The position numbers and the translations under genes were made by a program. The notes below the pieces were generated by a model. That model saw only the letters and a list, made by a program, of their open reading frames with translations. It did not search any database and had not been told where the DNA came from. A stretch of 44,445 bases of DNA from Deltaproteobacteria bacterium. GTDB lineage: Bacteria; Myxococcota_A; Polyangia; JAAYKL01. Below are positions 20,897-24,170 of the stretch, one piece after another. The DNA lies in contig JAUXHN010000011.1 of NCBI GenBank assembly GCA_030621515.1, forward strand, positions 1 to 44,445, read 5' to 3'. Every line of letters begins with the position of its first letter. Position 1 is the first letter of the stretch.

Positions 20897-21556
20897 ATGA
20901 GCTCCAGTGGAACCGGCGGAAAATGGGTGATGATCGCTGTGGCCGTGTTGTTGTGCGGAGGCGCGATTGCGGTCTTCCTGATTTTTGGCGACGACGGGGA
21001 TCCTCCGGTGGAGCCGAAGCTCAAGGGCACCATTATGGAAGCGGCCAGCGGAGAGGACGCAAAAAAACTTCGAGTCATGAAGAAGAAGCTGGAGCGTTTC
21101 ACGCACGCCATGCGCAAGAAACAGACGGAGGCGGAAGAGCGTATACAGGCGGCGGGCGAATCGAAATTGAACCTCGATCCCCGTGAAAAAATGGCTCTCA
21201 AGGCGGCCATCGGTGGATGTTACGATCCGCGCGCCATCCAGCGGGCGCTCGAAGAGAAGCGAACGTCCGAGTACGCCTCCGAGGTCATCGAAATGTGCGA
21301 CGGGATTCGAAGAGCCGAAACCCTCGACACACCCACGGGATCGGTTCCGATGACGAATGAGATGAAGGAGGTCATCAAGCGATCCTCCTGGTTGAAGAAC
21401 TACGCGCTCGATCTCATCAAGACGCAGAAACCTTCGGAGCAAGAGGACGAGCAGTGGAAGGAAATAAAGCAGATAAACGACAGGTTCGAGCACAAGCTCC
21501 AGTCGGTGGTTGACCTGTTCCCGTTTCTGGAGATCGAAATGATGCAGGTACAGTAA
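20897..21556 (+). CDS. Single-pass membrane protein with coiled-coil region, unknown function
   Basis: A 219-residue protein with one N-terminal TM segment (about residues 9-30) preceded by a short Ser/Gly-rich tail. An acidic/Pro linker follows, then a strongly helical, charged region of about 50-90 (EDAKKLRVMKKKLERF) likely to form a coiled coil. Two cysteines (in GGCYDPR and EMCDG) lie in the exported part and could pair. No family is recognised. GGAAAGGA precedes the ATG at suitable spacing, favouring this frame over the open frame on the other strand. The gene is alone on its strand, convergent with the SppA fusion gene (4 bp between stops). Confidence 0.7.
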   Translation: MSSSGTGGKWVMIAVAVLLCGGAIAVFLIFGDDGDPPVEPKLKGTIMEAASGEDAKKLRVMKKKLERFTHAMRKKQTEAEERIQAAGESKLNLDPREKMALKAAIGGCYDPRAIQRALEEKRTSEYASEVIEMCDGIRRAETLDTPTGSVPMTNEMKEVIKRSSWLKNYALDLIKTQKPSEQEDEQWKEIKQINDRFEHKLQSVVDLFPFLEIEMMQVQ

Positions 21557-21560
21557 GTAT

Positions 21561-24170
21561 CTATTCGTCGAGGATCGCGAACGGCAGCCTTGCCTGGGGC
21601 GCTCCGTGATCCGACACTGCGAACGGCAGCAATACCTTCAGAGTGCTCTTCATTTCCGTGCTTCCAAGAAGCGCATCCAGTGGAGTAGTGGTGTCTGTTG
21701 ACGCCTTCATCAGGCCGATGAGCCGTCGCAGGAGACCCTTTTTTGCTTTTGGAACGTGGAAGACCCTGGTGCTCTTGCTCACAAAGCCGACATTGCGAGC
21801 GTAGTTCAACGCTTCGGGATAACCTCCGAGTTCGTCTACCAGGAGATGGTGCTTGGCGTCGGCTCCTGACCAGATCCGACCACGCCCGCGTTTGTCCACG
21901 ATCTCGCGGGTGAAACCGTTACCGCGACCCTCGACCACGCGATCCAGGAACAGGTTGTAGTACTCGCGAATCTGGCCGAGCAGTTTGCGTCGCTCTTCCG
22001 GGGTATACAGCCGGGTCCAGGACTCCATATCCGAGTGAGGGCCCCGCTTGAAGGTCGTGGTGTCGATGCCGATCTTTCCGAGGAGCCCGGACACGTCGGC
22101 CTTGCCGTAAAAGATGCCTATGGATCCTGTCAGGGTGGTGGGTTCCGCGTAGATGACGTCGGCGGCGGACGCGATGTAGTAGCCCCCCGAGGCCGCCACC
22201 GCCCCCAGAGAGGCGATCACCGGTTTCTTCTCTCTCAGGGCCATGACCTCGCGCCAGATCATGTCCGAGGCGAGCGCCGATCCTCCCGGGCTGTTGATCT
22301 TGAGAACGACCGCGGCGATGTCCGGATTTTCGGCGAGCTTTCGCAGCTCCTTTGTCATCGTCTTGGCGCCGGTCATCCGGATGTTGAAGAAGGGAACATC
22401 CACGCTTTCGCCGTCTACAATATCCCCGTCGATGTGAACCACCGCGACGGCCGGAGCGTCGATGTAGGATCTGTGTCTCAGGCGATCCTTGCCGTATTCG
22501 TCGTTCACCGCCACCGGTCCGTCGGACAGAGTCTGCAGTTCTTCAACCAGCTTGTCTGCGGGTACCACCCGATCCACAAGGCCGGCCGCCAGCGCCTCCG
22601 ACGAGGTGTAGGGCCCGTCCTCGATCACATTCCTCGTCGCGTCATGATCGGCAAATCCCCGGTCTCTCTCCAGGTTGGCGATCACGTGAGCGTAGACCGA
22701 ATCCAGGTAACGGTCGGTAGCCTGGACGGAGGGATCCGTCGGGGATGTTCTCGTGAAGGTTTCAGGAGCGCTCTTGTACTCCCCGATGCGAACGATGTCC
22801 GCCTGAACCCCGATCTTGTCGAACAGGTTCTTGAAGTGAATGGATCTCATGGACATCCCCGCGAGGCGGATGCCTCCTGCCGGGTTGATCCATACTTCTC
22901 TGGCAGGGGCGCAGGCCAGATAGACCGAGGATGTCGCCTCCGTGAGGTAACAGACCGTCCTTTTTCCCGCCGCGTTCATCTCGCGAATTCGCCGCCTGAT
23001 GTCCAGCGCCTGATCGAGATCAATGGTTTTCGCGTCGGGCCGAAGCACGAAGATATCCACTGCCTTGTCGTCCGTGATGCGATCCATCAGGGCCATCAAC
23101 CTGGCCTCGCCGTAGGAATCGATGCGCTTTTCGATTTCGAAGAGCACCGCGCGGGTGGGAGGAAGATGGAAGGGCAGCGATGGAGCCTCGTCGCCGGAGA
23201 TGCGCACGGCCCAGGACAGGGCCTCGAAGCCGCGCCCGTCCTTTGGAGATAGTTTGAAGTGGCTGCCCGCCCGGATACCGAGGGGGAAACGCCGGGAGTC
23301 TATGGAGAGCGCGAAATCGAGGAAATAGCCGTTGTCGATGTCGTCGTCGCGGAGTCCCTCGGCGCCGAAACGGGTGCGGAGCATGAGGCCGTCCACGAGC
23401 ATCCACGAGAGGAGGGCGTTCACGTCGGTGCGCCGAAAAGGTCTGTCATCGAAGGTTCCGGTGCTGCTGTCGAAGACCTTGCTTTCGCCGTACAGGTAGT
23501 TCAGCTCACCGCCGATGGCCAGGCGGTCCGTACCCAACGGGCGAATCGTGAGGGCAACGCCGAAGCGTCTGGGGGCGTTCTCGATCCGCGACGGGATCCG
23601 TATTCCGGTACTTGATTCGGTAGCGTTGAAGGCGACCTCTGGCCTGTTGGCGTCACCCAGAGTGACGGCCATGGCCAGGTGGTTTACCGGGCGAACGGTC
23701 AGGGAGAAGTCGAAGGTGTCAATATCGCCGAGGTCGTAATTGAAAAATGTTCTGTAAGCGAAGCCGAAACCGAGAGCGCGGATCGGGTTGAGCGAAAGTC
23801 CCATGGAGAAACGCATCCTGTTGTCCAGGCCTTGCCACTCCTCGATATTGTCCGGTGGTGTCAGGAACTCGGTGGAAAGGGCGAGGCCGAGAGGGCCGAT
23901 GGGAAGGGCGAGGAAGAGTCCGTGTCCCTGTCCGGCGAGATGTCGCTGATCGGCCAGCCAGGAGCCGGCATACACGAAGCTCCAGGAATCGAGGAATCCG
24001 ATGTTCGCCGGGTTCACGGACAGGGCGGTTGCGTCGTTCACCTCGGTTGTGGATGACACGGGAAGCACGATACCCTCCGTTGCACGGGTGCTGACGACAT
24101 CCTGTGCCGAGGCACCGCTCGCGATCGCCGTGATCACCAGCAGGAGTGCCACAAAAACAAAACGAGCCAT
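21561..24170 (-). CDS. Outer-membrane beta-barrel-like domain fused to signal peptide peptidase SppA (67K type)
   Basis: An 869-residue exported protein. A signal peptide (1-22, cleavage likely after ASA) is followed by ~300 residues of alternating-hydrophobicity beta-strands. The start, DATALSVNPANIGFL (46-60), is like that of OmpP1/PorV-type outer-membrane barrels. Residues ~335-869 are a complete tandem-repeat S49 peptidase. Lys466 in RIGEYKSAPE matches the general-base Lys of E. coli SppA, and Ser661 in AASGGYYIAS is the nucleophile. SppA usually sits on the inner membrane and clears cleaved signal peptides; a barrel would place this one at the outer membrane, which is inference. GGAGG precedes the ATG. 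Confidence 0.85.
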   Translation of the reverse strand: MARFVFVALLLVITAIASGASAQDVVSTRATEGIVLPVSSTTEVNDATALSVNPANIGFLDSWSFVYAGSWLADQRHLAGQGHGLFLALPIGPLGLALSTEFLTPPDNIEEWQGLDNRMRFSMGLSLNPIRALGFGFAYRTFFNYDLGDIDTFDFSLTVRPVNHLAMAVTLGDANRPEVAFNATESSTGIRIPSRIENAPRRFGVALTIRPLGTDRLAIGGELNYLYGESKVFDSSTGTFDDRPFRRTDVNALLSWMLVDGLMLRTRFGAEGLRDDDIDNGYFLDFALSIDSRRFPLGIRAGSHFKLSPKDGRGFEALSWAVRISGDEAPSLPFHLPPTRAVLFEIEKRIDSYGEARLMALMDRITDDKAVDIFVLRPDAKTIDLDQALDIRRRIREMNAAGKRTVCYLTEATSSVYLACAPAREVWINPAGGIRLAGMSMRSIHFKNLFDKIGVQADIVRIGEYKSAPETFTRTSPTDPSVQATDRYLDSVYAHVIANLERDRGFADHDATRNVIEDGPYTSSEALAAGLVDRVVPADKLVEELQTLSDGPVAVNDEYGKDRLRHRSYIDAPAVAVVHIDGDIVDGESVDVPFFNIRMTGAKTMTKELRKLAENPDIAAVVLKINSPGGSALASDMIWREVMALREKKPVIASLGAVAASGGYYIASAADVIYAEPTTLTGSIGIFYGKADVSGLLGKIGIDTTTFKRGPHSDMESWTRLYTPEERRKLLGQIREYYNLFLDRVVEGRGNGFTREIVDKRGRGRIWSGADAKHHLLVDELGGYPEALNYARNVGFVSKSTRVFHVPKAKKGLLRRLIGLMKASTDTTTPLDALLGSTEMKSTLKVLLPFAVSDHGAPQARLPFAILDE

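Follow-up and report, generated by a model that had tools for sequence, protein, structure and literature searches.

An SppA-type peptidase joined to a predicted FadL-like outer-membrane barrel recurs across a bacterial phylum

The window analysed here, that is the whole stretch of 44,445 nucleotides, encodes an SppA peptidase which is, in all likelihood, located in the outer membrane and oriented with its catalytic part on the periplasmic side. It would be one outer-membrane protein, with a closed 14-stranded FadL/OmpP1-like barrel in place of the inner-membrane anchor of SppA. The gene is complete (869 residues, minus strand, 21561–24170), with its ATG at 24170 and its stop at 21561. The start codon is the first in-frame start past the upstream stop, and two relatives (L001 and L002), which share 93–94% identity with the fusion protein, are full-length. 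The first-pass annotation had read this gene as an SppA fused behind a barrel, and the fusion holds with exact coordinates on the minus strand. A chance fusion is rejected, since the same domain order recurs among relatives.

The protein starts with a predicted signal peptide (residues 1–22; 24105–24170; all protein features are on the minus strand), read from the sequence. It has a hydrophobic core of KD 2.36 and a cleavage site read at ASA/QD, and lacks a lipobox cysteine; it is conserved among relatives, and AxA-type cleavage sites are present in them. A hatch-like segment follows (residues 23–61; 23988–24104), which contains DATALSVNPANIGFL and an N53-P54 motif as in FadL/OmpP1. Next comes the putative antiparallel barrel of 14 strands (residues 62–326; 23193–23987), delineated by strand anatomy, alternation, profile comparison and covariation. 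A short linker (residues 327–340; 23151–23192) separates the end of b14 from the start of the S49 homology, and the end of the barrel coincides with the position of the membrane anchor in other SppA proteins. S49 homology then defines an N-terminal domain with the general-base lysine (residues 341–572; 22455–23150) and a C-terminal domain with the nucleophile (residues 573–803; 21762–22454). The C-terminal tail (residues 804–869 plus the stop; 21561–21761) ends in ARLPFAILDE, an ARLPF-type ending common among relatives; this conserved ARLPF-like motif (residues 858–869; 21564–21600) is preceded by a variable stretch. The fusion protein has no further membrane-spanning hydrophobic segment.

Residues 341–803 form a complete tandem S49 SppA. 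Pfam S49 (PF01343) matches in two stretches with 200.6 bits (cut-off 24.9; E = 1.8e-59), and the domain model TIGR00706 is exceeded (227.8 bits for a cut-off of 155.45), whereas the NCBIfam SppA_67K equivalog TIGR00705 stays below its cut-off (268.3 against 311.45 bits). The enzyme is thus an S49/SppA-type peptidase and not an SppA_67K equivalog. The catalytic residues had been given as Lys466 and Ser661, and both are indeed there: the codon of Lys466, the catalytic base, lies at 22773–22775 and that of Ser661, the nucleophile within AASGGYY, at 22188–22190. Both residues lie in regions that align with E. coli SppA (PDB entry 3bez), and this Ser/Lys dyad is unchanged in 55 of 55 fused relatives and in 21 of 21 lone SppA proteins. 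Such conservation supports a fused SppA that would be catalytically intact. The N-terminal inner-membrane anchor of SppA is absent: only the signal peptide and the barrel domain precede the S49 region.

The 14 strands were assigned by eye first, and their limits were fixed before covariation was considered: b1 (62–74), b2 (82–91), b3 (93–105), b4 (119–130), b5 (132–144), b6 (153–162), b7 (164–175), b8 (201–211), b9 (216–227), b10 (246–258), b11 (261–272), b12 (281–291), b13 (296–308) and b14 (315–326). Across 28 relatives, linkers 2–3, 4–5, 6–7, 8–9, 10–11 and 12–13 comprise 1–4 residues and change in length by 0–1, and the remaining seven linkers (the loops) differ in length. As read from the sequence, this alternation of turns and loops is the pattern of an outer-membrane barrel whose two ends both lie in the periplasm. 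The period-two hydrophobic alternation reaches 34.4, compared with 14.9 ± 2.9 in shuffles (6.7 sd above).

Covariation was measured as direct couplings in 170 homologue rows (128 effective), with 100 N-domain regions added; some of the rows repeat one gene and were down-weighted. Antiparallel coupling is stronger between neighbouring strands than between other pairs (3.60 versus 1.94, p = 2e-5), and the best register lies within 3 of the value set by the turn in 11 of 13 hairpins. Across all windows of the domain, the best partner of b1 is b14 and vice versa, with a score of 4.41 that random window pairs reach at a frequency of 0.0009 (0.09%). Between the fixed strands, b3–b14 scores 5.0, above b1–b14, so some couplings are noise or indirect, and the approach is limited by the few effective sequences and by strand limits preset by eye. 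For the segment carrying the NPA motif, coupling is strongest to strands 2 and 4, and strand 5 also has strong single couplings with it; a hatch inside the barrel would behave in this way. The N-terminal domain is thereby supported as a closed 14-stranded FadL/OmpP1-like barrel. A BAM β-signal motif at the end of b14 is found in many relatives, not in all, and b14 of the fusion protein itself lacks it in strict form.

At the family level, the N-terminal 300 or so residues match no Pfam or NCBIfam family above cut-off, and no PorV-type NCBIfam match was obtained. Searches of PDB sequences with N-domain profiles gave nothing significant, FadL included. The gathering score of Pfam FadL/OmpP1 (PF03349) is not reached, with a best E of 0.066 among 28 members, which makes the domain a distant FadL relative that is not filed as a member. 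Sub-threshold Pfam hits among the members are to Toluene_X/FadL (four), MtrB/PioB (three) and a TonB receptor barrel (one). Profile comparison was then made with hhalign against a FadL alignment built from relatives of the source organism: the probability is 93.5% with 28 rows and 96.7% (E = 4.7e-10) with 57 phylum-wide rows. The reversed control gives 20.8% and the SppA domain 0.4%, but 40 block-shuffles of FadL reach up to 93.5%, so part of the signal comes from generic barrel composition and the NPA motif; without this motif, the 28-row profile drops to 69%. The N-domain profile also matches ordinary FadL proteins (among them L195; E = 1.3e-7, with a Pfam Toluene_X E of 4.6e-17) from another family, where most sampled genomes have no S49 gene. 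Within the NPA motif, P54 is invariant and N53 is kept in at least 90% of the 28 relatives, in agreement with a hatch; the N-terminus of the relatives reads as a signal peptide and then a stretch resembling PTxGV...DAxAxxxNPAxLGFL. These comparisons argue for profile-level homology of the domain to FadL proteins. The PorV/OmpP1-type barrel of about 300 residues put forward in the first-pass annotation is therefore sustained by strand anatomy, alternation, FadL profile similarity and covariation.

The annotation had also named structure prediction of this domain as a check, and a model without a closed barrel as the outcome that would count against it. The prediction was run and, at low confidence, neither shows nor excludes the barrel; closure is supported by the b1–b14 covariation and not by a confident 3D model. 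AlphaFold2 gave a pLDDT of 45 for the full-length protein (about 22 for the N-domain; alignment of six sequences) and of 31 for the isolated N-domain (alignment of three sequences). It is uninformative on the barrel because the supplied alignments were too shallow. Of the 14 strands assigned by eye, 11 agree with the isolated-domain model, and a Foldseek search with this low-confidence model gave no match at E ≤ 0.001; at a pLDDT of 31, neither result is taken as evidence. We may wonder at this stage whether the N-terminal part is instead a periplasmic β domain, in a protein that is soluble or stays at the inner membrane through an uncleaved signal peptide. The lack of a confident model and family matches that are all below cut-off would fit this arrangement, but it accounts poorly for the closure and hairpin registers in the covariation, the alternation, the loop/turn pattern, the similarity to FadL and the AxA-type cleavage sites among relatives, and we regard it as decidedly unlikely.

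The barrel–SppA architecture is phylum-wide. A relative of the fusion protein is present in 39 of the 39 close and class-level genomes searched, most of them full-length, and the alignment used here comprises 28 full-length proteins, including the one under study. Of 284 genomes from the phylum, 179 carry the barrel domain according to the N-domain profile; among the matches listed, all but 13 are in open frames 780 residues long or longer. SppA follows the barrel domain in the same frame at 29 of the 30 loci checked, the 30th running into a contig end, and ten regions from distant genomes (some re-taken) are all fused, single-contig genomes included. A search across the phylum, presumably Myxococcota, was also suggested beforehand and bears out the architecture. 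An assembly or gene-calling artefact that merged two adjacent genes was rejected, since the same frame and order are found in independent assemblies, many families and single-contig genomes; we found no point in its favour and consider it vanishingly improbable. The maximum-likelihood tree covers 76 SppA domains, and one branch (SH-aLRT 98) parts its 55 fused from its 21 lone proteins. This unrooted tree is consistent with one old fusion that would have been inherited vertically. The viral contigs read carry ordinary lone S49 proteins, and the barrel domain is absent from them; a search of plasmids returned none.

Two groups depart from the general pattern. In family f29, an S49 match is absent from six of seven sampled genomes (G048, G067, G072, G076, G105 and G118) and G100 has one, unlike most relatives, which have two to six. 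In genus g28 of family f14, from the same class as the source organism, none of G033, G054, G165, G202 and G212 has a barrel-domain match, and G033 and G054 retain S49 genes; this genus has apparently lost the fused form.

The strand count also bears on the side of the membrane on which the enzyme lies. Fourteen being even, and the short invariant turns lying on the side of the termini, the SppA domain is predicted to be periplasmic. The protein would be exported by Sec and inserted by BAM; the source genome carries Omp85/BamA-type proteins. Both ends of the barrel would then lie in the periplasm, and the SppA domain, which probably forms a tetramer like that of E. coli, would hang off the inner face of the outer membrane. 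In E. coli, an N-terminal segment anchors SppA in the inner membrane and the catalytic domain is periplasmic (PMC9360617). The barrel sits at the position of this anchor, so the enzyme would be attached through the same end, but to the outer instead of the inner membrane. Its activity would be SppA-like, only at the other membrane, where its substrates may be hydrophobic peptides, signal peptides after their release, and pieces of lipoproteins or outer-membrane proteins that have failed. Such clean-up on the periplasmic side of the outer membrane, directed at hydrophobic peptides and at envelope proteins that have failed, is its likeliest task, and we give it an even chance.

The barrel as an outer-membrane anchor for SppA, as first proposed, is supported by the signal peptide, the barrel anatomy and the closure. 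The accompanying suggestion of surface proteolysis fares differently. Predatory lifestyles occur in the phylum, and they would suit an SppA displayed on the surface of cells or vesicles to digest external proteins, all the more as the barrel and the active-site residues are real. Yet the even strand number and the invariant short turns on the termini side point to a periplasmic SppA, and SppA is otherwise a periplasmic enzyme (PMC9360617); surface display is, in our view, very improbable. Activity in the lumen of vesicles is possible because vesicles carry periplasm.

The barrel could also do more than anchor. It may act as a FadL-type lateral channel joined to the SppA bowl, letting hydrophobic peptides in from outside, straight to the bowl, or fragments out. 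The conserved NPA hatch, which co-varies with barrel strands 2, 4 and 5, and the phylum-wide persistence of the link between barrel and protease speak for such a channel. Against it, the barrel is short (about 300 residues, where the FadL model has 421 positions), and different roles have been proposed for PorV and BamG, two FadL homologues (PMC12578637). We therefore hold a working channel to be unlikely, and grant the same low likelihood to the wider idea of an outer-membrane peptide gate, ancestral to most of the phylum, with hydrophobic peptides degraded on the periplasmic side.

The surroundings of the gene give no functional clue: it is flanked by CinA on one side and a divergent SMC on the other, an arrangement shared by the genus and, in part, by the family. 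Promoter and terminator scans returned only weak consensus matches. Convergent with the fusion gene, a frame on the plus strand (20897–21556) encodes a 219-residue protein with one N-terminal membrane segment and no Pfam match. Antisense open frames across the fusion gene were handled as frame shadows. One of them, of 405 residues (22035–23252, plus strand), covers the SppA part and has counterparts that are open in many relatives; it is most likely a codon-bias shadow.

Textbooks describe SppA as an inner-membrane enzyme. A phylum-wide SppA tethered to the outer membrane would predict that peptides are cleared at a second place in the envelope. For SppA, an enzyme of still uncertain physiological role, it offers a system that separates location from activity, and it links to FadL a barrel domain that is listed in none of the searched libraries. 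We found no description of the architecture in open-licence papers, although mentions may exist in automatic annotations or in subscription papers. The component parts are known; their combination, predicted location and spread appear to be new.

Among known systems, the closest to the catalytic part is SppA (protease IV) of family S49 and the 67K type, as in E. coli (PDB entries 3bez and 3bf0), which has the same tandem of S49 domains with the lysine base in the first and the serine in the second; homology with 3bez is clear across the whole catalytic part. The difference lies ahead of it: known SppA has an inner-membrane N-terminal segment (PMC9360617), in place of which the fusion protein has a signal peptide and a predicted 14-stranded barrel. 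FadL/OmpP1/TodX (PF03349), PorV and BamG resemble this barrel in their 14 strands, a number documented for FadL homologues (PMC12578637), in the NPA hatch and in profile similarity. Compared with FadL/OmpP1/TodX, the barrel of the fusion protein is shorter, scores under the Pfam cut-off and precedes a protease; the open-licence literature searched yielded no FadL relative that carries an SppA domain. The source genome encodes a second tandem S49 protein, a lone SppA of lipoprotein type (586 residues; L035/L165, G000:C56:24143–25567), which has a lipobox (ITGC) in place of the barrel and groups with the lone SppA proteins in the tree. It has Asp at +2; apart from it and the fusion protein, no full SppA was found in the source genome, and none with an anchor spanning the inner membrane was seen there. 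Finally, OmpA-type proteins also have a barrel first and then a periplasmic globular domain, the same order and topology as predicted for the fusion protein, with an eight-stranded barrel and a peptidoglycan-binding domain where the fusion protein has 14 predicted strands and a protease.
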